DNA from: Sipunculus nudus
Taxonomy: Eukaryota > Annelida > Sipuncula > Golfingiida > Sipunculidae
Direction: 5' to 3'
NCBI GenBank assembly: GCA_026874595.1
Contig: CM049308.1
Span: forward strand, 25,012,367 to 25,076,366
DNA: 64,000 bases
The number at the start of each line of letters is the position of its first letter. The stretch's first letter is position 1. Shown piece by piece: positions 20,465 through 63,072 of the stretch. The translations under genes were made by a program, and so were the position numbers. Below the pieces are notes generated by a model, which was given only the letters and a program-made list of their open reading frames with translations, was not told the DNA's origin and made no database searches.

Positions 20465-20470
<6 letters not shown>

Positions 20471-20679: not shown

Positions 20680-20682
<3 letters not shown>

Positions 20683-22176: not shown

Positions 22177-22520
22177 AGGTCAAAATAAAAAAAAGGTATG
22201 GTTCTCAGGCACTTTCTTTCTGAAAACAATGCGGGCGGGCGGTTTTTTTTTTTTATTTTTTAATTTTTTGTATGTTTCGATAAAAATGTCAAATGATCAG
22301 GGAAAAGCATGATAAATACAAATTTATTTTGCTAAACAAGTAAAAGCACTACATAACAAAGGAAACTGTATGGTTTTATCTTCTTGAAAGAAATGTCCGA
22401 GCGGCTGCATCTCAAAATTGGTAAGTTTCTTTTGAAAATCAAAATAAAAATTTTTGATGCGGGGGTTTAAAATCGACGCGGGCGGTGCCTGAGAACCATA
22501 CCTTTTATTTTTTTTGGCCT
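22177..22520. mobile_element. Foldback MITE, copy 2
   Basis: Duplicate of the element at 13317-13660. Inverted arms lie at 22195-22212 and 22485-22502, with the extra 141-bp unit continuing to about 22704. Confidence 0.75.
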
Positions 22521-25500: not shown

Positions 25501-25656
25501 AGATTGGCTGGAAAATGTGACCAGCACGTGACTCAGATTGTATGCGCGGTTACAAGGTTATCTGCTACACTTAAAGTTAGATGTAGGCTTCTTGGATCAA
25601 ACTGGAGCACAGGGTCACAACATTTTTAACATTAATCAATTTCGTTATGTCAAACA

Positions 25657-32305: not shown

Positions 32306-33790
32306 ACGCTGCGGGTATACTCCATATAGTTTATAGTTCTGTCACCAGATAGCGTCCCGTATCAGAATCGGTTCCTGAATCGATCTGCCCAAATTGAAGA
32401 TATCCTGTCGTGTTGTCATGAGTCACGGCGAAAACAAACATGTTCTCGCTGGTCCAGTCCACGTTGTTCTCGCTGCCGTGTATTTACAAAAATCACTGAT
32501 GAATTTCCTGGCCCTTTAAAACATACTGTCAATTCTCTCTACGATAGCAACTGTACATAGATCTTTCGTGCGTTCGAACAGTGGCATAATCTGGGTACGT
32601 ACTATATGGACAAAAAACATGATGGGATCGATTTTCACCAGTGCAATATCAAATGACCGTAAAATACCTTGACTGACATTACACTTAAGAACATGGGTGC
32701 GCTGTTTACGAAACTAAATGAAGTTTTACAGAGTTTCTCCCCACGTGACCCCCTCAGTTTTGCTCTGTTGGAACTTGATGGAGCAGGTTAGTATACCTAA
32801 AACCCAGGTACATTTGATATGTGAGGCACTCAAGTTATGTACATTTGTAATATTAAGATTTTGTGGCTATATTAAGTCAGTAAAATTCTCGAAACATTTC
32901 TGATAAATTTAGTATGGTCACGTTTTATCTTTGAACATTTTTTAGTTTAACAATATCCGTGACAACATGAGTATCGATTTAAAAAGCGTTTATACTTGCA
33001 GTTATTCTCATGTAATTAAGCATAATTTTTGGTTAATTTAAAGATCCACTCTTTAATATATTAACATATCACTGTTTTTTTAATCTCCATAATATTATAT
33101 TAACGTTAATTAGGAAAATGTTCATTTTACCAAGGGGTATGTTTTGTATGGGTTTCTGTATTTTGATATAGCCCCTGTAAAGTATTATATGCTGCCACCT
33201 ATCGGCAGGGGATTGAATAAAAACTAGAGGAGTGGCGTTCTGGCTGCGGCACACATGTAAGAATAAAAGGTTTAATTATTCATAACTAGAGTTGGACTGG
33301 GTATTGATAATGTCCCTGACCCTGCAAAATGCATCAATGATAGCCGTAATGTAGAGTTGTAATGCAAGCACATGTATATGATGAAAGATAACACAGTGCC
33401 CTACACTCTAATTATCATTTCAGTCAATTATCAAGTGAACCCTGTCATTTGTTGTTACATGCATTCCCGTTACTCAATCCTGCCGTCTACCTTAAAGCAA
33501 GGTCTCTAACTCGGTTGCCCAGAGACAGTGCTTCAGTGGGTCTCCTGGGATGGTAAATGATGAATTTTTAAACAGTCAATCATGTAATGAGGTCGATATT
33601 ATAATGGCGGTCAATCAGATCCATCGTTACAACAGTAAAACAAAACTGCTCACATACCTTATCAACAATAACACATATGCAATCAAAATATCTAAACATG
33701 CGTACAAGCATTAATAATATAATATGCCTGGTCAGATTGTCCATAACGTCTTCTATGATGGGTGATCTAAAAAAATAGAGCCCCTCGCCG
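32306..33790. other. Non-coding, nothing recognised
   Basis: No gene, RNA or element with defined ends was found. Frames are at most about 60 codons. Confidence 0.45.
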
Positions 33791-34033
33791 CGTACACTCT
33801 AAGAAAAAAAAGGTTTTAATATAGAATCATCAAGGGTTCTTTAGATTGGAGGCAGTTGGGAACCCTTAGAGGTTCCAGCTATAACCTTCTAGTCAGGGTT
33901 CTTCATGAAACCCTCTGGGGGTTCTTTGGGCACCCTAATGGTTCTGTATATATAACCCTGACAATGGGTGCTTTCAAGAACCATACAGAAGGGTTCTTCT
34001 TGGAACTATTTGTTCATGAAAGGGTCTTTAGTG
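33791..34033 (+). mobile_element. CACTA-like MITE
   Basis: Starts with CACTCTAAG plus an A-run and ggtt, and ends with ctttAGTG, matching the CACT...AGTG ends of CACTA/EnSpm elements. The interior is built from short direct and inverted ggttct/aaccct words, such as gggttctt, aaccctct and gaaccat. It is about 243 bp with no coding capacity. The flanking three bases are gta and gtg, so a 3-bp target duplication is imperfect. Confidence 0.5.

Positions 34034-34036
<3 letters not shown>

Positions 34037-34079
<43 letters not shown>
34037..34079. repeat. (TA)n microsatellite
   Basis: About 20 TA units abutting the end of the CACTA-like element. Confidence 0.9.
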
Positions 34080-34081
<2 letters not shown>

Positions 34082-34569
34082 GTTTGATTTTAGATTGAAT
34101 TCCATTCATTTGAATTCGTATAAATTTACGAACTATTTCTCCGGGTATGTTTTATGAATAATAAAAAATAAAAAAAATATGGTTATTTTTAACAGTTGAT
34201 ATATTCATATTAAATTTTTCCTATTCATCCGTTTAATAGAGGTCCGATCTTGCGCATGCACAACAACTTCGAAACAACGAGAAGTAACATGAAAGAAGGA
34301 ACACAGTAAAAACACCGGTTTGAAGAGTGAAACTCCTTTTTTTTACCCGGTGGGGTGCCCGCTATGGTTACATTTCGTGTCACTGCTCGCACCCGGTACA
34401 AGCTTATTTCTACTTGAATACATAAACAAACACTATAATTCATGTATATTTAACACTCTTGGTATGTGTATAGGTACTTTTAACAATACAGTTTGATTAT
34501 TTGAAACGAGAGAGCAAAGATGGTCAGCAGAAAAACAATCAATATTTATTGTTATTATTACTTTCACAG

Positions 34570-34870
34570 GAAAGACCACTGCTTTATACAGAATCAAACT
34601 GAACAAGACCGTAGACACCATACCAACAATAGGTACCAACGTGGAGACCGTGACCCTGTGCCCGGGTGTGTGTCATTTACCTTGTGGGAAATCGGCGATA
34701 AGGAAAAGCATCGTCCCTTGTATGTACATCATTTTGCGGGTATGCATGGAGTGATATTTGTGGCTGACAGCGCAGACCGTGACCGTTTGGCGATTTGCAT
34801 CCTGCCTTGGAGTCAGAATACTTAAGGAACGTGCCTGTTGTGGTTATTGCTAATAAGCAAGAGTTGCCAC
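34570..34870 (+). pseudogene. ARF-family orphan exon 2 (copy A), frameshifted
   Basis: Homologous to exon 2 of the neighbouring ARF genes but on the opposite strand. It keeps the acceptor (ttcacag|GA), the P-loop remainder ([11 protein letters not shown]), a switch I-like IPTIG and a donor (CCAC|gtaaga). A one-base change of frame separates the LCPG region from LWEIGDKEKHRPLYVHH. A deletion after DRDRLA then shifts the frame again before NVPVVVIANKQELP. The NKxD motif reads NKQE. It is 301 nt long, against 312 in the intact copies. No matching exon 1 or exon 3 was found nearby. The switch II motif is GDK in place of GGQ. Confidence 0.85.
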
Positions 34871-36599: not shown

Positions 36600-39035
36600 T
36601 TATTGACTGTCCCCCGACTCCTTGATTAAGCGAGACAAGGCCATCAATGACTCGATCAGACCGTCCCCGCTGGTGGCGCTGGTTCCCTCAACGTGCCACC
36701 TGTGCCCGCTCAGCTTCCAGAGTTCGAGCATCTCTGCTATCTCGGCGGGTTTTAGTGCATCTATGAGACACAAGAAATCTTGTCACAATGTGAAACAGAA
36801 GTTTATCAGAAAGAAGAGGTTGACATATTGCAAAAATCAAAAAGTCTCATTGTTTTGATCCAAGATATAAAGCCAAACGCAAATTTTTATTTTTTCGCGG
36901 ATTAATTTTTTTATTAATGTGCACAGTAGTAATATTGCGATTTTGGATTTAAAATGGCACAGATATAAGAGAACATTGAGTAAATTTTGTGTTGCTTACA
37001 AACATTTTAATCAGTTGATGCTTATTTTTTTACATTCTTCAGACATTTTGCAAATTTATGTATTTTATTCTCGACCGGCAAATATTTCAGGAAAAGTGTA
37101 TAACAATCAATTTCTTGCTGTGGCCTTTATATATGCTTTATAAATGTAATTGGGGTGGGTTTGTCTAATAAAACTTGTTGGTGTACATATGTTAGCATAC
37201 GCAAATATTCTATAGAGATATAATAGTTTAGGCCTATTCTACTTTACGGTTCTAATGACCACCAAACTCTCCTATAGTGGATAGTTTCACACCTTGAGTT
37301 TGCCCCGGGGTACTTTCTTATCGTATTTCTGTGCCCGTATCAAACGCTGATCTCGCAAAAATTTCGAAACCGCTCATGGGGGCTGTCATTTTTGCGCACA
37401 CACTAAAACCTGGATGGCACAGATCGCATTTCGAAATTATCTGGGCTTTAGTGTGTACACAAAAGTGTAACCGCAATGAAGAGGTTTCGGTATTTTACGA
37501 GTTCAGAGTTAATAAGGTCACGGAAATACAAAAAGAAAGTAATCTGAGGAGATTCTGAAAGTGGGCATCTGCGGAGATAGACCAGTATTTTACATGCAGA
37601 AGCCGAAGAAACGCTGTGCGTTGACCGCGCCCTCATTCTCAAATTAAAGTGGGATAAACAAGCATCTTGTATATATATGGGATATCTATGTATGCTTGCC
37701 TTGTCCAACATACGTGATGTATTTCCTTTTGCTTGAATGTACCCCAAATCCACTTGTATGACAGCTAGCTGTTGTGCAAGTCAACTTGCATGCATATTCC
37801 GAAATAAGCAATACGGTTTTGTTCTGATTGGCAGAGTAACTCCACCCGAATGGTTGTCCTGGCAACATCTTCATAGCTTTCCGGGAGACCTATGGTAAAT
37901 CATATTCGCTGTGCAAGAGCCTTCGCCTCGCGATGCCATGTATGACCCACGCCTATTGCCTTACGTGATTCTGGGTTATGATGATTAATCGCAATTGGTA
38001 TTAAGGTATGATTTAAAATATGTTCACTCACTTGGTAAATCTTGTTTATTAGCCATCACAGCCACCGGAACTTTCTCCTGACGTTCTGACTTCAAGAGAC
38101 CGTGCAACAGATCACGTGACTCAGCCAAACGGTCACGGTCAGTGCTGTCAACCATAAACAGCACGCCGCTCGATTGTGTAAGATAATGCACATACAAGGG
38201 ACGCAGCTTTTCTCTATCGCCGAAGTCCCACACAGTAAAGGTCACGCCGGGGAACGGGGTCACGGTCTCCACGTTAAACCCGAACGTTGGTATGGTGATC
38301 ACTGTCTCGTCCAGTTTGATCCTGTATAATGCAGTGGTCTTTCCTTGCAAATTGATGAAACAGAATAAGAAAATGCAGAATTTTGGCTCTTGTGCTTATT
38401 CATTCTTATTTATTCCTAAGTTTACTCTCATATTATGTAAAAAATGAATATAAAAACGATTAAAAAATCATCCATGCTGTTTCTTTTCTCATCCAAAGTA
38501 TCGATACATGCAGCGACGTCTGACGATACCGGTACGATATATGACTTGTATGTATCGGTGCACCGTTGAATCGGTAAAGCCCTAGTAAATGGAGAAACTC
38601 AGGCTGTGTTTTCGAAGGGGACCCGCGGGTTCTTATGTTTCTTACCAGAGGGAGCCACTAAATATTCAACAAACCAGCGAAACCGGTTACTTCAATACCA
38701 CGTTCGCGACTGTCACAGATAATATATAATTTGCTACAGATCATGAATAGAACCAACTAAATACACGAATAGACCTATATATATATAAGGATATAAGGGT
38801 GCGTCATTTGAATTTTTCATTCATGATCAGGTCATAGATAACAACATTACGAAAACATTTTACTATTGTTAAAGTTTGAATTTGTATATCGAAACGCGCA
38901 CACACACACATTATTCCTCAGGGCAGAATGTAGCTACATACCCGCAGCATCAAGTCCCAACATTAGAATCCTCACAGGTTCTCGTGCGGTGAAGCTCTGT
39001 AAAACTCCGTATAGTTTCGTAAAAAGACCACCCAT
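36600..39035 (-). CDS. ARF-family small GTPase, gene B, switch II GDR variant (188 aa, three exons)
   Basis: Exon 1 is 38942-39035, exon 2 is 38032-38343 and exon 3 is 36600-36760. These 94, 312 and 161 nt join in frame with GT-AG introns into 188 codons plus TAA. ARFs are usually about 181 residues. Gly2 in MGGLF would accept N-myristate, anchoring the protein to membranes. The P-loop is GLDAAGKT (27-34), switch I contains IPTFG (49-53), the G4 motif is NKQD (130-133) and the G5 motif is SAT (163-165). Typical ARFs read WDVGGQ in switch II. Here residues 70-75 are WDFGDR, so the catalytic glutamine is Arg75 and the preceding Gly is Asp74. GTP binding looks intact while hydrolysis is probably altered. 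ARFs recruit effectors and coats to membranes, but the partner here is unknown. A minus-strand AATAAA lies at 36462-36467. It could be called an ARF or an ARF-like protein; its closest family member needs a phylogeny. Confidence 0.88.
37557..37665. repeat. Dispersed repeat fragment in intron 2 of gene B
   Basis: Relative of 1795-1925, sharing gaccgcgccctca and flanking words. Intron 2 of B is 1,271 bp. Introns 2 of genes C and D are about 450 bp, so B's intron has gained sequence of this kind. Confidence 0.5.
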
Positions 39036-39204
39036 GATAACGTCGCAGTGTTACTGGTTAATATTAAATAATAACCTTGAACTAACATATAAAATGATGT
39101 TTGCGACCAGACAGTTCTACATAATGGTTCTCATACAAAAAAATCCGAGATGTCCCAATTAAACGGACGTAACTACTCATGGTGAAGTGTTGAGTACCTC
39201 GCAG

Positions 39205-39306
39205 TTATAAAGAAGTCGGCCTTGAGCGGTGATTTGTATTAGTATACGGCAGCGAGACCCAAGTTGGGAAAACCAGAGGGGACATGTTTGTTTTCCACGT
39301 GACTCA
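39205..39306 (-). promoter_or_regulatory. Promoter module of ARF gene B: TATA-like box plus TGACTCA site
   Basis: On the minus strand, TTTATAA-like sequence (around 39205-39211) lies about 170 bp upstream of the ATG. A TGACTCA motif (39300-39306), the consensus for AP-1/bZIP factors, lies about 95 bp further upstream and overlaps an E-box CACGTG (39296-39301). The same two elements, in the same order and spacing, precede genes C and D. Confidence 0.5.
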
Positions 39307-39544
39307 TGACAACGCGGGCTGATACACAGGAATCCGCTTACGGCACTCGCACTGATATCGCACTCCATCTGACGACAGGACTACGTACTACTGACGCTTG
39401 TGAAAATATCGACATAGTTAAATCAGCCCAATCACCTACTGGCTTATATATATTACAAACAAAACGTAATCACCTGGGTTTTTTTTTTAATCGGTCAGAA
39501 AACGTGGATATCTCCGCACACAGGCTGCTTGTATAGTTTATATA

Positions 39545-39900
39545 AACATTTTTATTTTATATGGGGGCCCGCCAAAATAATCAAAACAAATAAAAAAGGC
39601 ATATTGCGGCAAGTCAGAGAAGCCAGAGCTTTGCAAATGGTGTCTTGCAACAAGTGACCTTTCTACCTCCACATATATGCAACCTACAACCTATGGTTAC
39701 ATGATTTTACCGTTTGTCAGCATTGCTGTGTATACAAACACGTTGTTGATAATCATGATCATACATCCTGAACGGAGGCGTTGTAAGAACTTTTCATAAC
39801 CGGAATTACCCTTGGATCATTGATATACACAGAGGAAGCCAGAAATCGCATAAAATCTTTTTTCAAAAGGTAGAAGAATGTGCACCTTTAAGAGACGAAG
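39545..39900 (-). mobile_element. Dispersed repeat family 3, copy 2 (inverted)
   Basis: Reverse complement of most of 31815-32305, diverged but alignable throughout. It sits just upstream of the gene B promoter module. Confidence 0.7.
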
Positions 39901-40186
39901 AAAGCAATATCATTCAATGAACAATTAGCAATTCCCGTGAATCAGGTAGGTCCCAATGTGCCACGGTCCAGTCTTGCGTCCTCCATATTTGGACAAACGA
40001 GTATTCTGATTACAACCATTTGAAAACGATGACAAGAATGTTTTTTTTTGTATACTGTGTTCTCCTGATTGGTGGATAATTTATCACTTAGTGATAATTA
40101 TGAAAAGCATATTTCTGTTTAGTGTGTGAAATTGTAATAACAGTAAGTATGAGTATTCCTAAAATATTTTAAAATGTATACTTCAC

Positions 40187-40344
40187 GACCTTCCAGGTAC
40201 TTCTTGATTACCCGACTAGGCAAGATGGCGTCTTTCAGCTGACGGTTTATACTTTTTCCAACTTGTACGGTACTAGACATAACTTCCATCAAATCAACAT
40301 CGGTCAAAATATATCCTTCACTCTGTCCCTTCAGCCAAACAATC
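40187..40344 (-). CDS. Candidate internal exon, unrecognised
   Basis: An open minus-strand frame of 158 nt runs from a good acceptor (ttttatcag|G) to a plausible donor (GGTC|GTGAAG). It encodes a hydrophilic, mixed-composition peptide that includes TDVDLMEVMSSTVQVGKSIN. Composition is unlike the low-complexity frames around it. No partner exons were found. It may be the remnant of a gene, an alternative upstream exon of gene B or chance. I do not recognise the peptide. Confidence 0.28.
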
Positions 40345-40575
40345 CTGATAAAATAGACGATGTATCCAATATCATATCATTTTTTGCGCCTTATGGCGTT
40401 GGTTAAATTCTAAATGCGCGCCTCCTGCACCCGTTTCAAGATTAGCCCACGCTGTAGCCCCTGCTACACCAAGATTATATTGGCAGCCGATCTTTATACT
40501 GTAGTCGTCTCGGCACTTTTGTCTTTGAAATATTCTTAAAATGTGATCGCTGTGTTATTAATAATTATTAATACT

Positions 40576-40578
<3 letters not shown>

Positions 40579-40635
<57 letters not shown>
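40579..40635. repeat. (TA)n microsatellite
   Basis: About 28 AT units, at the edge of the duplicated block that follows. Confidence 0.9.
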
Positions 40636-40638
<3 letters not shown>

Positions 40639-40970
40639 GAATCATATTCTGTATACAACTGACAGAAATGTATTTCATAAACGCAGTTAACAACTACATG
40701 AACAATAGTGTAAACGTCTAACGAAAGTAGGTCAAAACGAATACTCGACCTGATTTCGGACTCTGATACCCGATTAAAATTACGGCAACATTTTTCCGGA
40801 ATAAAAAAAAATGATATGTGCTGTAGATTTAAGTGTTTCCATTTGACGTCATACCTGGGCCAGGAAATTACGTCAGGGTATACACTATTTTTCTTTGTGC
40901 AACCCTCCCGTAACATTACACCAGAGAACTTGCAATGCGTTGACCTAATCACCTGAAATTCGTACGTTAA
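40634..40970 (-). repeat. Duplicated intergenic block 3' of gene C
   Basis: Aligns with 46180-46530, found 3' of gene D. Shared phrases include gtggaatca-attctgtatacaa, aacgaaagtagg, ttttcggactc/tttcggactc, ttctttgtgca and cgttgacct-atc. The ARF genes were therefore duplicated together with several kilobases of downstream flank. Confidence 0.75.
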
Positions 40971-41206
40971 AAAAATAGAAATTAAACGTTTTATGGATTT
41001 TTAACACGAGCATACTCACTGCGTTTAGTGTTCGTCTGCCGTGTTCATGTCCAATGAACCAGTTTTGTTGGTTTGTCCTATGTAATTAAATACAAGCATG
41101 CGGTTCCGTCAACAGCCTAGCTGTTAAAGATAAGTATGATTTAACATTTAAAACATGTCGAATTATGATCTCTCCTGTCAATATAAATCCTTAAAGTGAA
41201 TCCTCG

Positions 41207-41220
41207 CCAGCAGGTGGCGC
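41207..41220 (+). promoter_or_regulatory. CTCF-like motif 3' of gene C
   Basis: CCAGCAGGTGGCGC fits the bilaterian CTCF core consensus CCASYAGRKGGCRS at every position. It lies about 20 bp beyond the remnant stop codon of gene C. The homologous site 3' of gene D (47745-47758) has two mismatches. Binding is unproven. Confidence 0.35.
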
Positions 41221-41345
41221 AAATGAGCTGGGAAGGGTCTACTGATTGTCCTTGGATTTTTTTAAGCAAACGAGACATGGCCGTCAGGGACCCGATCAGA
41301 CCGTCCCCGATCGTGTCGCTGCATGGTTCCCTCAACGTGCCATCT

Positions 41346-42083
41346 TTGCTGCAGTCTTGCAGCGCTGACATATATAGTAAACAATACAAGCGCTGCAGCC
41401 TCTGGCGGGGAGAGTCTATACTATCTAAGTTTGTACGGATCCGGACAGACCCTCAGACACGTATATGCCTTGTGAAGCGTGGGGACACCAAACAAACCCC
41501 ACATATTATAATTGTTACAGATGCTTAGACTCCGTTGGGACCAAAACTTTTGCTGGATGATCAGCATTAATAAAGTATGGGCACTTACTCTGGATGAAGT
41601 CAGATATTGCATCGTCTCCGTCTGGCCGATGGCGCTTTCCGGTTGGAACAACCAATAGGAATTTAGCATCATTGACAACAAGCGATGTATGATGGGAAGG
41701 ATGCTTATTAAAATATGGTCTATCCTAGTGCACGGCACTGGCATTCCTGGGAAAAGCCCCCCTGAATTCATCTTTTGCATAGATTGCCCACCTAATTTGC
41801 ATGGGATTCCTTTTCCGGCGGTGTCTAGTTGGCATGCAACATCTGAACCCCGGCAGTTCAAAGGATAAAAAAACATTTACAGGCGCACATAAAGGTGATA
41901 TATCGATTTAATTTGATACATAAAAAGTTTATTTCTATATATAAATACAAGATTGTTTCTCTATCGCACAACAAGCAGTGGTAATTCATGTTACAGGTCC
42001 TTCAGTGAACGGCAGGGTGAACTCTCACCGCCAGACGGTCGGACTCCGTATCACAGATAAATGGAGTCCGTACGTGGCGGACT
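41346..42083. mobile_element. Hairpin-ended insertion in exon 3 of ARF gene C
   Basis: The exon is broken at acgtgccatct, which is present on both sides (41335-41345 and 42084-42094), as expected of an 11-bp or slightly shorter target-site duplication. Inside, inverted subterminal repeats lie at 41399-41415 (cctctggcggggagagt) and 42022-42038. Outside them, each end has its own hairpin: TGCAGCGCT with AGCGCTGCA (41358-41366, 41389-41397), and CGGACTCC with GGAGTCCG (42040-42047, 42063-42070). The 151-codon minus-strand frame inside has no recognisable domain. The superfamily is unknown; target duplications of 9-11 bp occur in Mutator-like elements. Confidence 0.6.
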
Positions 42084-43033
42084 ACGTGCCATCTGTGCCT
42101 ACTTAACTTCCAAAGTCCGAACATCTCTGCTATGTCAGCGGGTTTTGCCGCACCTGTGAGACATCAGAAATATTTGATGAACAAAAACGATAGAACAGCT
42201 TAACAAAATACAAATTTTAATTTTTTCATTGTAATTGTCGGATAATTTAATAGTTCATAGATTTTGTACATATCTAATGTCTGAAAAATAAAAAAAGGGG
42301 GAAAACGGAGCGTGGCACAAATTCGGGCGCTTTTTTTTCGGCATTAAGTTCGGATGGTTTTTATTTTTCGTCTGTACGGGTCGATAGGGCGATGGGAGGG
42401 ATAACCACTCCAACCTAAATCCGTCCCTGTAATATACAATACCGTGATAGAAAAATGTTTCCTGTGTGTCCCATACTGGGCATCGTATCTGCTTTAACAG
42501 TGATTTAATTAAGCAGATGTTTTTCTAAGATTTCACGTTAAAGGGCTAAAAAAATCAAATGGTTAATGGCATTTGCCCGAAAAAAAATACTGATATATAT
42601 GGTTACTCACATATGGCGTCTCGTTTATTAGCCATCACAACCACCGGGACGTTCTTCAGGTTTTCTGACCGCATGAGACCGTGCAGCAGATCACGTGACT
42701 CAGCCAAACGGTCACGGTCAGCGCTGTCTACCACAAATACCAAACCACTCGAAGAATCAAAATAATGCACATACGAGGGACGCAGCATTTCTCTGTCGCC
42801 GACATCCACCACGTTAAAGGTCACGCCGGGGCACGGGGTCACGGTCTCAATGTTAACACCGAACGTAGGTATGGTGGTCACTGTCTCGTTCAGTTTGATT
42901 CTGTATAATGCAAAAGGTCAAGAACTAGTAAGAAACAGGAGATTTGTGATAACTTTCTAACTAAAAACAAGTCTGGCCTTTGATAGGTCTGGTCCTTCTC
43001 TTAATAAATAATCGGTCGAATTTCGCTCCCGCT

Positions 43034-43075
43034 CATCGATGGGTATATGGTCTAGTCACTGCGTGGTATCAGAGA

Positions 43076-43125
<50 letters not shown>

Positions 43126-43237
43126 ATCCAAGAAGTAAAGGGGTTCTTGGCTCAACAGACTGCCTGGCACAGGTAAATATGTCTGCAGGGTGGTTCATCG
43201 ATGGGTTTATGGTCTAGTCACTGCGTGGTATCAGAGA

Positions 43238-43305
<68 letters not shown>

Positions 43306-43381
43306 ATCAGAATCCAAGAAGTAAAGGGGTTCTTGGCTCAACAGACTGCCTGGCACAGGTAAATATGTCTGCAGGGTGGTT
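43034..43381 (+). repeat. Tandem duplication with TA arrays in intron 1 of gene C
   Basis: Two adjacent copies (43034-43195 and 43196-43381) begin catcgatgggt-tatgg, contain a TA array of 45 or 66 bp, and end ctgcagggtggtt. Apart from array length they are nearly identical. Gene D has a single diverged counterpart near 48790-48900 without the TA array. Confidence 0.85.
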
Positions 43382-43927
43382 ATATTGTATATTTTATGTT
43401 TTTTTATAATGTTCTTTCATTTAGACGCCGGGAAGAAAACTATACGAGACGCAGAATTCAGCGCTGCTTTTCGGTATTTTAATAAAATATTCCATCTCAC
43501 AGATATTTTGATGGGGCGCGCCCCTTCTCCATCTACCCTATAGCCCGAATTTTTCGGACTCAGTATTATTGGAAGGGTCTAATATATTGAGTCCTATTAA
43601 ATCGTGCTACATCTACCCCTGCTACATCAAGATTATATTGGCAGCCAATCTTTATACAACAGTCGTTTTGATACATGACTATGCTATTTTCTTCCGATAT
43701 GCTCGTTCAGAGTTACTAATTTGAATGAAGATGATACTGTAAGAACCTGCAAAAAAATTCTTGTCAGAATATTATTACCTTGTGGCTTTATGTTTTAATA
43801 AGGCCATGAGGATAAGGAACTTGGATGGGGAGGGGGTTCAAGGAGCGCGTGAGATATATTTAAGTACTTTACCATTCGAGAAAAACATATGGAATTTCGC
43901 TTCCCTGCAAAATGGAATACAAAGAGG

Positions 43928-44050
43928 TGAATGAATGAATGAATGAATGTATGAATGAATGAATGAATGAATGAATGAATGAATGAATGAATGAATGAAT
44001 GAATGAATGAATGAATGACTGAAAGAATGACTGAATGAAGGAATGAATGA
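43928..44050. repeat. (AATG)n array in intron 1 of gene C
   Basis: About 30 GAAT units with few interruptions. It occupies the place matched in gene D by the longer 49376-49846 array. The minus-strand frames across it encode His-Ser-Phe-Ile repeats and are not genes. Confidence 0.92.
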
Positions 44051-44420
44051 AATATTGTGCACAGTTGATTTTTCACGAAAAAAATTAGATAATACATTAC
44101 ATTTCGCGAAACAGCCAAACATATTTAGGAGTTTTGCATATAAATTCCTCAAGATATAAAGCCCTTACCCGCTCCATCAAGTCCCAACATAAAAATTCTC
44201 CCAGGTTCCCGTGCGGTTACGTTCTGTAAATCTCCGTATAGTTTCGTAAAAACACCACCCATGACGTAATATGTCACCACGTAATGTCAAACATTTGCCA
44301 AAATAAAATGGCCCTCATTTAATGTTGGGAACCAGCCTCTCATACTCAGAGGCTGCATGGTCAGTGTAGTGTATAATAAACGAACGGAAGTACACATTGT
44401 ATAATATAGAGAACGGCGCT

Positions 44421-44526
44421 ATAATAAAAGCACCGTGGATTCAGCTGAGATTTGTATATGAACACGGTATCGAGACCCACGTGGACAAAACCAGCGAGGA
44501 TATTTGTTTGTTTACTCCGTGACTCA
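44421..44526 (-). promoter_or_regulatory. Promoter module of ARF gene C: TATA-like box plus TGACTCA site
   Basis: Minus-strand CTTTTATTATAG (44419-44430) lies about 160 bp upstream of the ATG, with TGACTCA at 44520-44526. The surrounding block (gtgactcatgacaacgcgg) matches genes B and D. Confidence 0.5.
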
Positions 44527-45171
44527 TGACAACGCGGCGCTCCATTTGAAACAGGAATCCGTTAATGGTACTCTCGCTGGTACGCCATCTAGTGCCAGGA
44601 CTAAGTACCATTGATGTCAGACATGGGTAAAGTGTTCATTATTTAAATGACTCGGCAGATGAAAAAATAACTTCATGTTACCCGTTAATAAGCTACGGTT
44701 TGGTCTTGCGCCATATATTTTGGGCAAGCGAGTACCCGAGTAACAAACATTTATATATGAAATAAAGGGAGATAATTTTTCATTTTAGAAAGTCTGTTAC
44801 ATAAAGCGGCGCCTATCTTTTTTACGACAATTATGAAGGCTTAATGACTCACCAATATGAGCATTCCAGCAGTAAGGGATATTATATACCTGGGCACGAA
44901 CTTATCAACTGTATACAAGGGATAGCCCTGCCTGGGCTTTAATATTTACGTTTGTTACTAAAATAAAACCTGATTCCAAGTACTGATAGACGTAACTCAG
45001 TGCCAACTCTTTTCACTTAATGAAAAGTCAGCTAGAGAGCGATTTTTTTTTTTTTTTCCGCGAGGGGGTAGTACGTGTTCTATGCGTTGCAACAAAGCAA
45101 GAGTAAGTTTGGTGACTCTGACGGTGGCAGTTATTATGTTTTAACAATTGCATCGACTGGGCCAGTCTACA

Positions 45172-45440
45172 CCAGGGATCGTAATACTTTTCCAACGGAG
45201 AAACATTAATACAGGTTTGTCTTCCCCAGAAAAACAATTCCTTCCCGCTACCATCATATCTAACTTTCACAGTTTCAGTCTCACTTCTCTCAGTGTAAAC
45301 CCCATTCTGCCACCCTACATGCCATCCTACATAAACACTTGAATGCAGAAAGCACTGAATGTTTTCAATAGTAAAACTCTTATATCAGGAACATGATTGT
45401 GCAGTGAAATAAACAAGAAAATAAAGGAGATGAAGGCCTA
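45172..45440 (-). mobile_element. Dispersed repeat family 2, copy 3 (inverted)
   Basis: Starts gggatcgtaatacttttcc and runs as the reverse complement of 29150-29512 and 36120-36432, keeping the ccaacggagaaacattaata and atgaaggcct blocks. Confidence 0.7.
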
Positions 45441-46179
45441 CATGACATTTTTTACAGGAAAATATAGGACATTTTATATTTGATTTCTATACCTGTGTTT
45501 ATATATATATATATACATGTAACAGTCACATCGTTATATTTATACATTTCTGATGCTACGCGGACTCTCCTATGCCTCTGTGCAATGTTTAAAACTCTAT
45601 CTCCTATGACTAATTAATTGTAGTAGCGGCTCCTTGAAATTATACTTATTATACTATCTCTGCTCAATAAGGCTTTATACACAAAAAATAATTTCACCAA
45701 AGAGATTAGGTATACTACCGTATTTCTTTGATCAGATCCCCGGGCGTTTATTTCTTTCGGCCTTGATCGCAAATGACAGATCGGGAATATTTGCTGCCCA
45801 TTCCATATAGGTCTGAGGCGTGTGACATTTGAAAGATAAATTGGTGAATTAAAATAGAGCAACAAAGTTAAAAAAAAAACAGATTTATATAACTCATATT
45901 CAATTGACTCGCAAATCCACGCGTTTTAGTAACAGACATGAATATAAGCAGAGACACCAGGCAGCAATTAAGGGAACTTTTCTGGTAACCGGACTTTGAA
46001 TCGATTCCCGCGTTGATAGTGCGCAAATGTAGGAACTATTGGTCTCATATTCAGTATTAGTATCACCCGACTCGGAACCGAGTATTCGTTAGAATGGTGA
46101 CACTTTCCATGGGGTCATTAAAAAATATTCATCAAATATTTTTAATATACAAATAAACATATATTATATATTTATAGTG

Positions 46180-46530
46180 GAATCACATTCTGTATACAAT
46201 GGACAAAAAAAAGTTTCATTCACTTCGTTGACAACTGCAGGAACAATTGTTTAAACTTCTAACGAAAGTAGGCAACACGATCGAGTACTCGCCTAGTTTT
46301 CGGACTCGAATACACGATTAAAGGTACTCACCATTTTACAGGAATGAATAAGAACAATGTGAATATAAATTGAAGTATTTCAATATTTCGTTATGACGAC
46401 AGGTACCTGCAACACCCAGTCACGACAGGATATCGATGCAGTCTTAATATTTCTTTGTGCAGTCCTTTCGTAACATGACACTAGAGCACGTGTAATACGT
46501 TGACCTGATCCTTGGGATTTTGTAGGTTTA
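46180..46530 (-). repeat. Duplicated intergenic block 3' of gene D
   Basis: Partner of 40634-40970. Its right end is cut by the SINE that begins near 46551. Confidence 0.75.
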
Positions 46531-46550
46531 ACAAAACACGTATAAAAACC

Positions 46551-46860
46551 TTTCTGTGGCTCAGGGGGAGAGCACAGGATTCAAAGCCGGGAGGTCGTGA
46601 GTTCGAATCTAAGCCGAGGCGGTGAGATTTTTCACGGTCGGTCCCCACTCTTGGTGAGCGCTCTGCAGGCACAATGGGGAGACTGCCCAACAGTCATGTT
46701 TCACTCACAAACAAGTGCGCCTTTCGAGGGTTCCTCGGTGTTATGGAATGACACATACCAAGGACCCGCAGGTGAGGTACACCGAACCTGGTTGACACCA
46801 GGATAACCAGGTATAAGCTCCTGTCATGTAGTCCGAAACCGATATGGAACTCTGCAGATG
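46551..46860 (+). mobile_element. tRNA-derived SINE
   Basis: The head has an A-box-like tggctcaggggg (46557-46568) and a B box GAGTTCGAATC (46599-46609) at the spacing of an RNA polymerase III internal promoter. It could fold as a tRNA with a D-stem gctc/gagc. A body of about 230 bp follows, including cctcggtgttatgg and a repeated aaccagg/accagg stretch, then a short AT-rich tail. It is too long and diverged to be a functional tRNA gene. The family name is not assigned. Confidence 0.7.
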
Positions 46861-47659
46861 TATATATAAATAGTTAAGCAAGCATTTAAAAAAAAACACG
46901 TGTGAAAGACCTTTTCATGAGCAAGTTCACTGCTAGTTTCAGCTCCCGTGCTCTCTCCCTACGCTTCGCTGCTCTCCGCTGTGAGAGAACCCTAGTAAAA
47001 GGTGTTTGAAAACTGGAGATGTACCAGTGGACAATAAAACTATATTATTCTGACTTAGAAAAGTGTCAGATTTAAGAATACAAATACATTTTTTTATCAT
47101 ATGGAAGCATACCATACCACTTGAACAACGTTATGCCCCTTAAACACTCGAATCGGGCAGGTCTTTATCTGAAGGAGTAACACAAACATGTCTGGAGGGG
47201 AGTTTCCTGGGTTTCTCCACGTAAAGCGTCATACCCGTTATCAACCTCCAAGGCAGGGTCATGATCTGTTGTGTTATCCTTGAAATTCCTAGCAAGTTTT
47301 TTATATGGAAAATGATGCGTCGTACGCGCCATCTGGGGATTGTCCCAACTCTGATTAGAAACAACTGTCAGGCTTTTTAAGTGAAATTGGTTTAGGCATT
47401 AAAGCAGGAACTTCAGTGAACATTCTTATTCACTCGAATACATTAATATTATCTGCCCCCAAATGCATACAAGTTCCCCTGTCATACACACAATATTTGA
47501 TTTTATGCGATCTTTGTCCGATACAGGATTTACTTTCTCGCGTTTTCTTGAAGCTTTTTATATATAGAGAATCCATGGAACTGGATACCTACGCCGCATA
47601 ATTGCAGTCAAAGCATATATAGGGCTTCGCCATAAGATTCGCCGCTATGATGGGGTAGA
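46861..47659. other. Non-coding, nothing recognised
   Basis: Between the SINE and the 3' end of gene D. Frames such as 47140-47364 (minus) have no motif. Confidence 0.4.
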
Positions 47660-47665
47660 TTTATT
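47660..47665 (-). terminator. Candidate poly(A) signal of ARF gene D
   Basis: AATAAA on the minus strand, about 112 bp beyond the stop codon of gene D. The hexamer and distance fit animal 3' end formation. Confidence 0.4.
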
Positions 47666-47744
47666 ACGTTTAACATCTGAAACATGATGAAATAGGATCT
47701 TTCCTGTCCATACAATGGACCTGAACCTTCAGTGTCCATCCTCG

Positions 47745-47758
47745 CCGACAGGTGGCGC
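47745..47758 (+). promoter_or_regulatory. CTCF-like motif 3' of gene D
   Basis: CCGACAGGTGGCGC differs from the CTCF core consensus at two positions and corresponds to the site at 41207-41220. It sits about 20 bp past the stop codon of gene D. Confidence 0.25.
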
Positions 47759-47776
47759 AAATGAGCTGGGAGAGGT

Positions 47777-50049
47777 CTACTGATTGTCCTGGGATTCATT
47801 GATCAAACGAGACATGGCCGTCAGGGACTCGATCAGACCGTCCCCGCTGGTGGCGCTGGTTCCCTCAATGTGCCATCTGTGCCCGCTCAGCTTCCAGAGG
47901 CCGAACATCTCTGCTATCTCCGCGGGTTTTGCTGCACCTGTGAGACACCACAAACATTTGTTGAACTCTCGATTCTGCTTTATGAAAGAACACCTTAACA
48001 TAATTTAAATCTTGAATTTCTATTGTAGAGGTCGGATAATTTATTAGTTTATGAATTTTATACAAAACTATCGTCTGCAAAATTAAAACAGGAAAATAAA
48101 CGGCACGAAACACAAATTCGGGCGCTTTTATTGGTATTCAGCTGGGATAATTTACTTTTCTTGTGTATTGTGTTCGAAAGGGGTTGGGAGGGGTAGCTAC
48201 CCCCACCTTAATCCGAGATATTTATGTGATAAAAAGTTATTTGTATGTCCTAAACAAGGCACCGTCTCTGCTTTAACAGCGGCTTAATTTTTTTTATTTT
48301 GTTATCAGATTTCACGTTAAAGGGTAATAATTCCCAATTTGTTTATGACAGTTGTTGTAAAAGAGACTGACATATTTGGTTACTCACATGGGGCGTCTTG
48401 TTTATTAGCCATCACAACCACGGGGACGTTCTTCAGGCCCTGTGACTGCAAGAGACCGTGCAACAGATCACGTGACTCCGCCAAACCGTCACGGTCAGCG
48501 CTGTCCACGACAAATATCAAACCACTCGAACCTTCAAAATAATGCACATACAAGGGACGCAGCTTTTCTCTATCGCCGATGTCCCACACAGTAAAGGTCA
48601 CGCCGGGGCACGGGGTCAAGGTCTCCACGTTAAACCCGATCGTTGGAATAGTGGTCACTGTTTCGTTCAGTTTGATTCTGTATAATGCAGTTGTCTTTCC
48701 TGTAAGATGGCAAAAAAGGTAAGAAAATACAGGTTTTATGATGACTTTCTAACTAAAAACAAGCTCGGGGCCCTCGATATATCTGGCTTATGCATGGTTG
48801 TGTTAAGTATCAGAGACAGATAAAGAATCCTAGAAATAAAGGGGACGAGCTCAACAACCTCCCTGGCACAGGTAAACATGTCGGCCAGCACTGTCAGTAC
48901 AGTATATACGTATAGGTCTCATGTGGAGACGTAGGGAAGAAAACGATGAAAGCAGCTTTGGCGCTTAATGTTTCCCGTACTTGATTATATTATTCTATTT
49001 CACAGATATTTTGACTCGCCCCCCCCCCTGCGCCCCTCTAAATCCGCCCATGCTACATAAAGTTCATATTGGCGGCCGATCTTTTATACTGCAGTCGTTC
49101 TGACAGATGGCTATGACATTTTCTTCCGATTTGATGGTTAAAAACCTGTGAAAAAATTCTTGTTAGAACATAATCAACTTGTGATTGTACATGTTAAATT
49201 AAGGCTATGGGGATACGGAATGGGAATGTGTGTGTGTGGGGGGGGGGGGAGGGGGGTCCAAGTTAAGGAGCGCGTGGGAAATTTTTCAAATACTGTATCA
49301 TTCGAGACAATATATGCGGAATTTTGCTTCTTTGCGAGTAATGTAAAAAAACAAAAAATGCATGCTTTTATCATTTAAATGAATACTAATGAATGCATGA
49401 ATGCATGAATGATTGAATGAATGAATGAATGAATGAATGATTGAATGATTGAATGCATTGAATGCATTGAATGCATTGAATGCATTAATGAATGCATGAA
49501 TGCATGAATGCATGAATGCATGAACGAATGCATGAACGAATGCATGGACGAATGCATGAGTGATTGAATGAACGAATGAATGAATGAATGAACAAAATAA
49601 TGGACGAATGAATGAATGAATGAACGAATAAATGAATGATTGATTGAATGATTGAACGAATGATTGAATGAATGAACGAACGAACGAATAGATGAATGAA
49701 TGGATGGATGAATGAATGAATGAATGAATGAATGAACAAATGAACAAATGAATGAATGAATTAACGAACGAACGAATGAATGAATAAATGAAAGAATTAA
49801 TGAACAGATGAATGAATGAGTGAATGAGTGAATGAATGAATGAATATCGTGCTTAGTTTTTCAGGGAAATCATTAGATAATGTATTACACAATTACATTT
49901 CGCGAAACTGCCAATCATATCTTGTGGTTTTTAATATAAATTGTAATGCACTTACCCGCTCCATCAAGTCCCATCATAAGAATTCTTGCAGGTTTACGTG
50001 TAGTGAACGTCTGTAAAACTCCATATAGTTTCGTAAAAACACCACCCAT
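47777..50049 (-). CDS. ARF-family small GTPase, gene D, switch II GDR variant (188 aa, three exons)
   Basis: Exon 1 is 49956-50049, exon 2 is 48388-48699 and exon 3 is 47777-47937. Their lengths (94, 312, 161 nt) and intron phases match gene B, and together they give 188 residues ending at TAG. Gly2 (MGGVF) allows myristoylation. The P-loop is GLDGAGKT, switch I contains TIPTIGFN, the G4 motif is NKQD and the G5 motif is SAT in TSATSGDGL. Switch II reads WDIGDR, with Arg at the catalytic glutamine position and Asp for the preceding glycine. The reading frame is intact, so this is likely functional as a GTP-binding, membrane-associated protein, but with impaired or GAP-independent hydrolysis. 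Intron 1 carries a long AATG array. Genes C and D share intron sequence and are closer to each other than to B. Confidence 0.9.
49376..49846. repeat. (AATG)n-derived array in intron 1 of gene D
   Basis: About 470 bp of GAAT-type units interspersed with gcatgaat, gaacgaat and gattgaat variants, including four ATTGAATGC units near 49450-49485. It is longer and more varied than the array in gene C. Minus-strand frames give Phe-Ile-His-Ser repeats only. Confidence 0.92.
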
Positions 50050-55785: not shown

Positions 55786-55797
55786 GAATTCATCATA

Positions 55798-57957: not shown

Positions 57958-60239
57958 GAACTCTACCAGAGACGCGCTTCACAGATCTCAATATAAAATT
58001 ATACCTGGATATATAAGTTATCAGATATGTTTTATCGATAAATTAGCTTTTCCATCTATTGTGAGCTAGAGGCTTTCATTCTGTAGACCATCTTTCTAAA
58101 GAACATGATGAATTAAAACTTTGCGAGCTTGCATAAATATTCCAGTCAGCTTGACACACTTAGATTTGGTACAACGCAGAGAATTACTATGCAGCCGGAT
58201 TGCTCGTACACTGCGTACTAGTACAATGCTTTGTATATAGTAATGTATGACGTTGGGTGATAATAAAGTAGATTCACCATATATACCAAATTCATATTAT
58301 AAAATTGTCGGATAGTTTTGATGAATTTATTTGCTTTGTCTTGTTTGTGATGGTGGTAATTATTTGATTATACAGGATAATTTGATTGGTCTGAGAAAAT
58401 ATTCCAATCATTTTGAAATCCTGTACTTGGTATAAGTCTAAGATTAAGTACCGATTGATCCACTTTCATATTCATTAAGCCCGCGGCTGTCCGTCACATG
58501 ATAATGGTACAGGCTTTACTGAAAAATCTTAGTGAAAATACAATCACTCATTCCACCGGAATGTTTTTATCACTTTCAAGTCCCTAGAAAGGCTCCTACG
58601 AATCTAAGGTTCATTTCAAATGAAAGTATATGCTGCACATTGGTATATGTTTGTCAAGTAAGGAACCTATAGGTTTATAAACCCATATCACACCGTAACA
58701 TTTAATAAAAGCTATAGAGCCGTTTGCCAATTTTGAACAAAAATGTATATTTAACATATTTGATAGAGTTTGGTGACCCATGTAAAGACAAAGCTCACGC
58801 TCTATGCGGCATGATTTTGTAGTATTTATAAATATCGTATTGTGCTGCACAAAGTATGTTTTCCAGTTGTTCATGCTTGGAGAATATATATAGTGAAAGC
58901 TCTTTTAGATGCATTTAAACCTACACGTCCGTGGCCAAGCAGAAAACATTAACCGGTAACCCTGTAGGCATCCAACGATGAGAAATAAATTTAAGTAAAT
59001 GACCTTTGTTTAACTTTAAATATGTTATTTGAAATATGCCTTCAGCATTTTCTTCAGTTTTGTCATCACTATTTATATAGACAGGAGAATTTGATTGCTA
59101 ATAAACCTTGCATGCACCTCTTACACATGTCTGTGTTTTTGCCTGCGGTTATGATCCTTTGTGTGTTTGAGTGAGTATAAAAGAAAACTTCTGCTATATT
59201 TTCACAATATTTCCTGTTTAAAATCCTAGGATTTAAAATTTATTTATAATTTAAATAAAAAAGTAAAGAGCTTTCCCCCACGAAATGGTGTCGAGGCTCT
59301 TGTTAAGTGAACCGTAGTGGGGTTAAGTGTTGCGTCTTCATGATTTAAATAAATATAACTTGCCACAGTACGGCATTGTATGTCTATAGCACTATGTACC
59401 ATACGTGGGCCTATAGCAATACTTCCCTCACAATACGGTTAACGATAAAATATGGTATTTTTAAGTTTAGATTCATAGTCACATTCCTTAGTTCGTCTTT
59501 GAAAGATAGCATCCCCTTTTACGAGAGTTATTTTCAAAATTCCAAAAGTTAAATTTATTTCCAAACAATTAGCCAGTCAGATGCCCCACATAAGTTCTGG
59601 GCTATGAATTTCAGCTTACACGTCTTGTATGGCGTTCATAAACATTTATATTAAATTTCTCGCGCCGTTTTCCATCAGGCGATCATATATATAGTCACGT
59701 ACCGATACAGAGGCAACTGACGATAGAGATACACTATTTGAATTTTTCATCTTGATGTATATCTGTGAACCGGGGTATCTTTACGGTCTTATCTAGCATA
59801 AATTATGAAAAATTTGTATTGACTGAATATATACAAAGGATCAGTTGTTACAGAGCTGGCTTGCTCGCCATAACCATTGGCTGTTGTCTGAAGGAAAAAA
59901 AAATATTTTTCTTGTATAGGCCTTTTAAATCTGCGCTGTCTTTGATGATCATGCTATGGCATACCGGGGCCAGTGCGTGTATGTGTGTGTGTGAGGGGGG
60001 GGGGATATGTAACCCCTTACAAACCTTGAAAATGTTCACTATGTTTCTACATAACTCCAAAATTAATTGAATATATTCTTTAAGCTATACTGGAAATATA
60101 AAAAAGTAGTTTAATTCATGGTCTAACTTGTAATTAAAGTTTTCTTTTTTAGTGTGTGTTGTGTCCGACTTTAGATCAATCCCCAGGACCGCCCCCCCCC
60201 CCCTCTCATACCTTTATAAAAAATCCTTAACCCGGCCCT
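57958..60239. other. Non-coding, 3' flank of the cGAS-like receptor
   Basis: The 3' UTR of the plus-strand gene should lie at the left. The first clear AATAAA is at 58262-58267. Beyond it I see only AT-rich DNA, a G run (59996-60004) and a C run (60188-60203), and no convincing exon on either strand. Confidence 0.45.
58262..58267 (+). terminator. Candidate poly(A) signal of the cGAS-like receptor gene
   Basis: AATAAA about 305 bp after the stop codon. Plausible distance, not proven. Confidence 0.35.
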
Positions 60240-60442
60240 GCACAGCTGTCCACGACAAACAGAAGGCCTTACGCCTTTCCGTAGTAGTGCTGCCAGAATA
60301 CGACGTTTTTCCTGACCTCCGATGTCCCACATAGTTTAGGTCACGCCGGGGCACGTTGTCACGGTCTCAACGTTAAACCCGATCGTTGGTCTGGTGGTCA
60401 CGTTCTCGTTCAGTTTGATTTTATACAATAATGTGGTCTTTC
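60240..60442 (-). pseudogene. ARF-family relic exon 2 (copy E) retaining GGQ
   Basis: An acceptor (ccacag|GA) leads into [17 protein letters not shown], then [11 protein letters not shown] stop codon follows CPGVT, and the frame resumes as MWDIGGQEK. One frame further on, FWQHYYGKA, a second stop and GLLFVVDS can be read. Sequence identity ends near 60240. No exon 1 or exon 3 was found nearby. It is clearly non-functional. Unlike copies A-D, it keeps the catalytic glutamine motif GGQ, so it comes from a more typical ARF and is either an older or a separate lineage. Confidence 0.85.
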
Positions 60443-63072
60443 CTGTGGTGAAGCATACATACTATTAAGTGTACATATTTTTTTTTCATTTAATATCTAC
60501 ATCAAATTTACTGTAAGATTTTACCCCGACTAAATCCTGACTAAATCCTGAAGTCCACCAAAATGGTGGTCTGTCCGAATTTGAATGGTTGTTTTAGTAT
60601 GCCAAATGTTAGTATACTGCCAGTTTCGGGGAAGCGTCTTTGGAGAGAGACGGAGGGTTGCTGGCTACTGGTTTCGCCGTTGCTTAACGTCCTCCGTCAA
60701 CTTCAGACGCCAGGGGCCCAAGTGCCTCCCCCTCGGTTCTCTGCATTGCTTATCGGAACCCCCAGTGAAAGATCACAATGTGTATATAGCGGTGCATGCC
60801 TATGGGCAGATTGGATAGCTTACAATAAGATTAAGTATTTCAAAGTTTGTAACTGACAATTCTTTCTTAGAATAACTAAACTCCCTCTAATCAATTTTTT
60901 TCCAGAACAGAAAGGTGTAAACCTTTGTACACATCAATACGTTTTCCGTTTACGAAAATCAGACAACGATAATGCGGCGTTGGAAAAGAAAAAGATGACC
61001 GTATAAAAAATTCATTGGAGTGTATACAAGCGCACGCGACGGCAACAACAATGCAGCACGACTATCCGGATATTTTTCACATTATTCTGTCAGCGATTGG
61101 TTTTTTTTATCACCGGATATGACCGTGCGGCGGCATTTCCATTAAATGACGTCACTACAACCATACACTGGCACACTTTCAAAGCATTGTAGTTCAATAA
61201 GACCACAGGGATGCCCCGAAAATCCTAAAAATTACCTAAAAATGTTAGAAAAAAAGTAATCCAGAGAATTATTGTCAGAAAAAGTAATCTAATATAACCT
61301 AAACCAGTCTCAATTTTCATAAGGTGTGTAAAATATATTCAAATATGTTTCTCTCTGTCTTCCCTTTTTATTTATTAAATGGAACCGGTCTATTCCCTTT
61401 CTTCTTCATATAATTTAAGACAAAGACAATATTCAGAAGGATATTGTCGCCCTTAAAGCTTAGTGCCACTATCATTTCTGGAACTGATAATCAAAGAAAC
61501 TTTTATACTTTGTGCTTAAGGTTGATTCGTGATGTAAATCAAACTGATCAAGGGTGATCACCATGCATTTTGGTAAGATATGACCATTAAACAAGACGGT
61601 GGTCAATTGGCTTTTATGATGGACGGAAGAAAAATCAGTTAAAGAATATAATAAACTACAGAATTGCAATAAAGTGTAATTTGAAAACTTTTATAATAAA
61701 AAAAGCCAGCAATATCATTTTATTATATGAAATAAAGAAATTTTATTATGAAAAGAGAAAAATATATTGTCAAAATTCATATATAATAATAATGAATACC
61801 TGGCGAAAATGACCAGAATACATCACTCCTCTGCAGGTATAAAATAAAATTTAAAAAAAGCTAGAATTGATTTCTTATTTTAATCTGGCCTATGAATCAC
61901 TTATACTATATGATAAATAATCACCAAACAAATTTAGGGTCACCATAGATCTTAGCAGTCAAACATTAGTGTCTGTATAATAAGAATATAAAAAATGCAT
62001 ATAAATGATGCATATATATCTATAAAAGTAATTTCCCTTAACATGATAACATAGAATCTTGAGAAAAATGATAAAGCAAAAGCGGTATCGTGTACAGGGG
62101 TTTGTCGAGGGCAATTAATTAAGCATCAGTTTGCAATTAATTATCGATCTGCCACCTCTACCTATTTCCCAGTATTTTTCAAGTAAGTAAAGTAGCGATT
62201 CTATGATAGGTACTAATACCTAAAACATATAAATTAAATTCATTTGAAGATAATGGTTAACCAGTTCAAATAAAAATTAAACACTTTGAACAGTAACGGG
62301 AGTAAAAATTAGGGCTATTTAAATCGGAAAATGTTGACAATTGGACCTATGTACCCCGTATAATGCATGACAATTTAGGTCCGATCATGGTATACGGTAC
62401 GTTCATTAGCCTTATATGAGACCATCCCAAAAACCGTAAATAAACGCTGGAAATTTGGAATATTTTACGTTTTAAATCTTGTACACAGTTATATGATTGT
62501 CTCATCTAAAGTAACCAGTCATAAAATGAGAAATATAATAATAATGGAGTGTAAATGCATTTTGATTTGGGCTTGGGAGACCTATTGTGGGAAAAATTGA
62601 CCGTATGCGGACCATATATTTTAGTTGGAATTGGCTTGATTTTCCGAATTTTAAGTTACTTTTCTGGTGTCTATGGTAAGAGTTCTGTCCATTCTATTAT
62701 AATCAACTGGAGAAAGTGTAAAATACGCATAAAATAAGTATGATACGGACGTTTTCTGTGGGCCCGGGTTTTCTGACGGCCCAAAAAACAAGCATTTTAA
62801 CCCTTAGTAAGAGTGATAAATTACCCCTAAAAATAACGAATTATCAGCTAAATTTTTATTTCATAGGGAAGGGATAGACTCAATCTTCATGATTAACTCA
62901 ACTTTAAGATCGTTTCTATTACGTAAGGCTTTTTTTTTTTCATGTGTTTAATTGGGCCCGGGTATCTCATTCCACAACGCGCAGTAGCAATCGCGGCACT
63001 TAGCAAGGTCTATTGTGGTATACAAAACTACGGAAGCGTATTGCTGCCACCTAGTAAAAGAAAAATAAATTA
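60443..63072. other. Non-coding, nothing recognised
   Basis: Frames at 60563-60856 and 62555-62737 are short and lack motifs or splice context. The stretch 61650-62150 is very AT-rich. Confidence 0.45.

Follow-up and report, generated by a model that had tools for sequence, protein, structure and literature searches.

Background

In ARF GTPases F51, W66 and Y81 contact effectors, and the activated state is read out by Gly70, Trp78 and the network of Asp26 and Arg75. As described in excerpts of Neuwald (2010, PMC3012027), the backbone NH of Gly70 senses the γ-phosphate, Arg75 binds the Gly70 carbonyl, Trp78 binds Gly69 and packs on Arg75, both Arg75 and Arg99 bind Asp26, and further bonds join Arg75 to Asp96 and Arg99 to Glu106. 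Here we analyse a tandem array of ARF-type GTPase genes in the sipunculan Sipunculus nudus, part of which lies in the window (the whole stretch of DNA analysed, 64 kb with no N, C3:25012367-25076366, from an assembly of 1.43 Gb in 153 contigs). Four neighbouring copies, A to D, have lost Gly70 together with the catalytic Gln71 and Trp78, and we propose, with a probability of roughly 0.5, that they form a pseudoGTPase-like branch of the ARFs whose products would bind nucleotide but be uncoupled from the γ-phosphate.

Related departures from the canonical switch have been described elsewhere. Ras in which Gly60 is replaced by Ala is found, according to an excerpt of PMC4867591, predominantly in the inactive state 1, and its intrinsic GTPase activity is drastically impaired; a passage of PMC7067412 terms that state non-signalling, and the title of a paper by Ford et al., as given in the reference lists of both sources, refers to a dominant-negative effect. 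Within the ARF family, an excerpted source describes Arl19 and Arl20 as animal groups that are absent from vertebrates and derive from Arf1/6-like ancestors, Arl20 being defined by its own introns. The motif string GDREKLR did not occur in the literature searched, and none of the literature matches listed was on the topic of Gln-less or inactive ARFs like A-D, or of ARF expansions in molluscs.

Results

Substitutions in switch II

The array comprises eight copies (A-H) over about 65 kb, with two more (I and J) on another contig. Five ARF-like copies are in the window, A on the plus strand and B, C, D and the fragment E on the minus strand; F, G and H (C3:25.08, 25.10 and 25.11 Mb) follow about 5-34 kb beyond the window end on the strand of B-E, and I and J are at C14:2.64 and 2.66 Mb. 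Switch II of A-D aligns without gaps to the WDVGGQ of the ARF1 and ARF6 chains in the PDB:

34685-34720, plus strand: switch II segment of A, WEIGDKEKHRPL, reading GDK
38195-38230, minus strand: switch II segment of B, reading GDR
42774-42809, minus strand: switch II segment of C, VDVGDREMLRPS, reading GDR
48551-48586, minus strand: switch II segment of D, reading GDR

In ARF1 numbering, Gly70 is replaced by Asp in all four copies and Gln71 by Arg in B, C and D and by Lys in A (codons 70-71 are GAT AGA in B and D, GAC AGA in C and GAT AAG in A); translation and alignment thus bear out the GDR and GDK readings of a preliminary description of this DNA. Trp78 is Tyr in A, B, C and D, Glu106 is Leu in B, C and D, and there are additional changes of Arg99 to Gly in D and of Trp66 to Val in C. 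The same description held that the P-loop, NKxD and SAT motifs are kept in B and D, and the residue table agrees: P-loop, Thr48, NKQD and SAT are retained, and the full set of key residues kept in both genes is G2, D26, G29, K30, T31, T48, F51, W66, D67, G69, R75, Y81, D96 and NKQD.

The preliminary description went too far in assigning the loss to the whole cluster, an extent that we reject, as GGQ is kept in E-H: E reads WDIGGQEK (codons GGA GGT CAG, with WQHYY in another frame) and F, G and H read WDIGGQE(R/K), and all of E-J have both GGQ and Trp78. Its limits for the cluster, 36600..50049, also leave A (32693-34870) outside. Where it singled out the glutamine, that residue is indeed lost, but only as part of a loss that takes in Gly70, Trp78 and Glu106; judged from the residues, the replacement of Gly70 by Asp, accompanied by Tyr for Trp78, is more unusual than the loss of Gln alone.

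The seven canonical comparators (F-J and the ARF1 and ARF6 of the same genome) all have G70, Q71, W78 and E106. Sixteen of the 69 columns identical in these seven genes are changed in B or D, and eight in both (K36, G70, Q71, W78, E106, R117, Q156 and C159); three of the eight shared changes fall among the 9 invariant columns of switch II, none among the 8 of the P-loop and none among the 11 of switch I. In a wider control of 13 further ARF-family genes from the same genome, the ARL identities being assigned by eye, Gly70 is kept in 12 (the exception, L026, reads DLDEL) and Gln71 in 10 (lost in L020, L021 and L026). Of 20 stretches fetched for this control, 7 gave no switch II line and 13 gave one; ten of the latter, which by eye resemble Rab, Ras or Gα proteins, are not counted among the ARF-family genes, and one of these ten, L030, reads WDVAGDE. 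L026 (C1:30080300-30081000, minus strand) is a separate ARF-family open frame with FDLDELSGFGNPW at switch II, lacking Gly-Gln, and is apparently a second, separate loss.

Gene structure and family membership

As had been noted earlier, B and D are open, and each proves to be a complete gene of three exons and 188 codons with GT/AG introns. The first intron lies inside the P-loop (GLDxAG|KTT, phase 1) and the second after NKQDxP (phase 1). On the minus strand the genes span 36600-39035 (B), 41258-44262 (C) and 47777-50049 (D). The individual features are as follows:

32693..32786, plus strand: A exon 1, beginning MGALFTKLNEVLQ..., with the P-loop GLD changed to ELD (tblastn and translation)
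34569..34870, plus strand: A exon 2, pieces in three frames, with switch II WEIGDKEK within 34685-34720
36600..36760, minus strand: B exon 3, SAT motif and stop
38032..38343, minus strand: B exon 2, switch at 38183-38230, Pfam Arf 1.4e-32
38942..39035, minus strand: B exon 1, ending G|GTATGT
41258..42153, minus strand: C exon 3, split by about 0.74 kb into 42153-42083 and 41345-41258
42614..42911, minus strand: C exon 2, lacking GKTT and acceptor, with VDVGDREMLRPS at 42774-42809, Pfam Arf 1.1e-25
44169..44262, minus strand: C exon 1
47777..47937, minus strand: D exon 3, SAT motif and stop
48388..48699, minus strand: D exon 2, switch at 48539-48586, Pfam Arf 9.3e-35, PDB ARF1 1.2e-35
49956..50049, minus strand: D exon 1, ending G|GTAAGT
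60230..60443, minus strand: fragment of E exon 2, with stops and a frameshift, canonical GGQ at 60312-60320 and Trp78

Three of the eight copies in the array (A, C and E) are broken. No exon 3 of A was found, and C was rejected as a working gene, its GKTT and exon 2 acceptor being missing and its exon 3 split; the interrupting stretch, window positions 41346-42082, is without ARF similarity. F, G, H, I and J are intact and have in common both intron positions and an extra residue in the interswitch turn. This residue, extra by comparison with ARF1 and ARF6 of the same genome, is family-wide, canonical members included (L010, L012, L013, L018 and L019), and may affect how the interswitch toggle works. 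By blastn (E 1e-5), B and D can be aligned only at their three exons (84-86% identity) and over one 148-bp upstream stretch (73%); their introns gave no alignment at that threshold.

Pfam Arf scores (cut-off 22.3 bits) are 113 for B, 90.6 for C and 120.1 for D, A being left out because of its in-frame stop. Among the best 60 of 321 PDB matches, B scores 182.5 bits against ARF1 (6.6e-53), 176 against ARF6 (6.8e-51), 163.7 against ARF5, 159.3 against ARF4 and 140.2 against ARL1 (6e-40); by these scores B is closer to the ARFs proper than to the ARLs. A, B, C and D all start MG and so have the Gly2 required for N-myristoylation, a modification that is predicted for them.

A search of the whole genome gave 67 Pfam Arf matches, for part of which switch II was read, and a search with D exon 2 gave 22 rows, of which 11 belong to other ARF or ARL genes and the rest to the ten family loci (A appearing twice). 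Among these ten loci (A-J) the altered switch II is confined to A-D. In the stretches fetched between F and G (L011) and flanking the array or window (L014, L015), tblastn listed no match. Relatives of D exon 2 numbered none among 9 pattern matches in viral contigs and one among 175 in genome contigs, an archaeal fragment not used as support.

Origin of the altered block

Nucleotide and protein trees both place A-D in one clade with a support of 100, separate from E-H and I-J, and the same split is recovered at 100 in a tree with ARF1 and ARF6 and without E; splits within A-D are weak (support 45-77). Because E-J and ARF1, ARF4 and ARF6 have both GGQ and Trp78, the ancestor most likely had both as well and lost them once. 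Four independent losses are therefore rejected in favour of one evolutionary change, and E, on its residues, is the copy within the window that polarises it. B and D are nearly equally identical to ARF1 and to ARF6 of the same genome, and the second intron of the A-J family lies one codon away from an ARF6 intron there. The loss in A-D is genuine and out of the ordinary, restricted to a single sub-block of an ARF array that is canonical elsewhere.

Selection on the altered copies

Rates of nonsynonymous (dN) and synonymous (dS) substitution were estimated by Nei-Gojobori counting with a codon bootstrap and by a custom codon likelihood model (GY-type, F3x4) fitted to 183 of the 188 columns in ten genes with stops masked. 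Counting over the 188 codons of B and D gives dN 0.121 and dS 0.297, a ratio of 0.41 (bootstrap 0.24-0.64), and over the codons retained in C the ratios are 0.35 (C-D), 0.48 (C-B) and 0.44 (B-D). In the codon model, dN/dS is 0.11 on canonical branches and 0.17 on the stem of A-D (p=2e-5 against 1). For the class made up of B, D and the branch above C and D it is 0.42, both below 1 (twice the log-likelihood difference, 2dlnL, 11.3, p=0.0008) and above the 0.11 background (2dlnL 19.8, p=9e-6). D taken singly has 0.21 (p=0.003 against 1). A fit to the seven intact genes gives 0.43 for B and D together (p=0.002), with p=0.01 for D, and a model of the four copies gives 0.22 for D (2dlnL 8.5), 0.50 for B (3.0), 0.61 for C (2.0) and 0.37 for A (13.2 against 1). 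The A-D block is constrained but relaxed, and D is the safest case.

The preliminary description had suggested selection for a protein and named a ratio near 1 as the result that would speak for simple decay. Selection holds for the 0.42 class and for D, neither of which is near 1, and is left in doubt for B, which is perhaps under purifying selection.

Discussion

Interpretation of the altered switch

Anatomy, residues, single origin and selection on D can be read in the DNA; the mechanism is our proposal. One ancestral lineage lost the γ-phosphate sensor (Gly70), the catalytic residue (Gln71), the supporting Trp78 and, in B, C and D, Glu106, its intact copies keeping the nucleotide-binding motifs and a myristoylatable Gly2. 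The B and D proteins are predicted to bind guanine nucleotide, but GTP, once bound, would not draw switch II into its effector-binding state; both would then be switch-uncoupled pseudoGTPases, deviating in the manner of RGK proteins and Ras G60A. They would probably reside on membranes in a GDP-like or open state, acting either via the GDP-like face or through occupation of ARF exchange factors; a membrane site in common with ARFs is suggested by the kept T48, F51, W66, Y81 and Gly2.

Several points weigh against this interpretation. The concentration of the shared B and D changes in switch II is suggestive, not significant (Fisher p=0.063). Asp70 need not abolish the γ-phosphate contact, because a main-chain NH is present in any residue except proline. 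Neutrality is not rejected for B singly (dN/dS 0.59, p=0.26), nor in the fit to the seven intact genes, where its estimate is unstable (p=0.31), and the broken copies have similar averages (0.46 for A, C and E together; 0.35 for C-D and 0.48 for C-B by counting; 0.37 on the A branch). Because such averages include the time before a copy broke, a ratio of about 0.4 shows past constraint, not present function.

These last values lend weight to the view that the GDR block is a redundant set of paralogs at varied stages of loss, B and D being the last still open. The broken state of A, C and E fits it, as do the Trp66 to Val change in C and a dN/dS about four times that of the canonical sisters. 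We nevertheless regard it as unlikely, if credible, given that the stem of A-D was itself constrained, that D, and also the class that includes B, reject neutrality, and that the frames and splice sites of B and D have survived a synonymous distance of about 0.30 at which their introns can no longer be aligned. The suggestion made at the outset that B and D are GTP-locked decoys, dominant-negative by sequestering ARF effectors, can appeal to the replaced catalytic Gln and to the T48, F51, W66 and Y81 kept in both. It seems to us very doubtful, because Gly70 itself is changed: with Trp78, which is changed too, it belongs to the device that reads GTP, and Ras G60A, the closest change to have been studied, favours in the excerpts cited above a non-signalling state in spite of impaired hydrolysis. 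B and D are thus more likely, as far as their residues indicate, to be nucleotide-bound but switch-uncoupled than GTP-locked. That Asp70 and Arg71 permit GTP-dependent switching by another route, with a GAP residue or Arg71 providing for hydrolysis, is more improbable again. Precedents can be cited, since His replaces the Gln in Sar GTPases (excerpt of Neuwald 2010, PMC3012027), ARL10, ARL13A/B, ARL15 and ARL16 lack it, and RGK proteins are classed as binding and hydrolysing with abnormal cycling (both in the part of PMC12722892 consulted). The ARF-family cases, however, are described in those excerpts as Gln changes, and Gly70 is kept in 12 of the 13 other ARF-family genes of this genome.

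The array offers a system in which sensor, catalyst and supporting Trp are changed, the binding motifs are kept, and canonical sisters in the same array serve as built-in controls. Recent work on atypical ARLs has raised the question whether an ARF can be of use without switching, and this array permits a direct test of it. Dominant-negative Ras mutants such as G60A act by holding the exchange factor. By analogy, A-D might be a new ARF sub-branch without a GTP switch that antagonises its canonical sisters in the array, for instance by keeping hold of the factor that exchanges their nucleotide, an extension that we consider distinctly speculative.

Neighbouring sequence

Window positions 7934-16796 and 16794-25656 lie head to tail and are 99.9% identical over 8.87 kb, a duplication that is either very recent or an assembly artefact. 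Between D and E (55771-57957, plus strand) lies a 728-codon open frame matching Pfam Mab-21 (2.8e-13) and Mab-21_C (8.3e-19), and at 2539-3621 (minus strand) a 360-codon open frame with no Pfam match.

Comparison with known systems

The canonical sisters F-J have the same two introns and the same extra interswitch residue as B and D, to which F-H are 60-61% and J 56-57% identical, but keep GGQ, W78, R99 and E106 and evolve at a dN/dS of about 0.11. ARFs of the ARF1/ARF6 type (PF00025) share with B and D the whole 188-residue domain, Gly2, P-loop, switch I, NKQD and (S/C)AT, and those of the same genome are 48-51% identical to them; they differ in that DxGGQ has become DxGDR in B and D, with W78Y, E106L and the extra interswitch-turn residue, and in this genome's ARF1 the intron positions are unlike the two in B and D. 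A-D depart from the DxGGQ and Trp78 expected of the ARF family, having GDR or GDK and Tyr78.

Human TRIM23, in which Lys replaces only the switch II Gln, had been offered as a natural parallel. It is a poor one, because only the Gln is replaced there and the TRIM23-like gene of this genome has GGQ; B and D, moreover, begin with their own MG exon and not with RING or B-box modules. The TRIM23-like gene (L046/L047, C4:67.20-67.21 Mb, minus strand) consists of RING-like and B-box-like pieces, recognised by eye, and an ARF domain.

The Gln-less ARLs (ARL10, 13A/B, 15 and 16, in the part of PMC12722892 consulted) resemble A-D in having no switch II Gln, whereas two Gln-less ARL-like genes of the same genome keep Gly70 (DLGGG in L020, VGGAEN in L021). 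By the motif definition of a pseudoGTPase in the same excerpt, A-D belong to that class, Gly70 and Gln71 both being replaced, an assignment made here from sequence alone. In the RGK proteins (Rad, Gem and Rem), according to an excerpt of PMC4081519, the DXXG glycine is Glu in vertebrates (DXWE), G4 and G5 are well conserved, G2 is poorly so, and DXWE fades outside vertebrates. RGK proteins form a branch of the Ras superfamily outside the ARFs, and A-D, with their motif DxGD and best matches among ARFs, are not members of it, so that the resemblance would be one of mechanism only.

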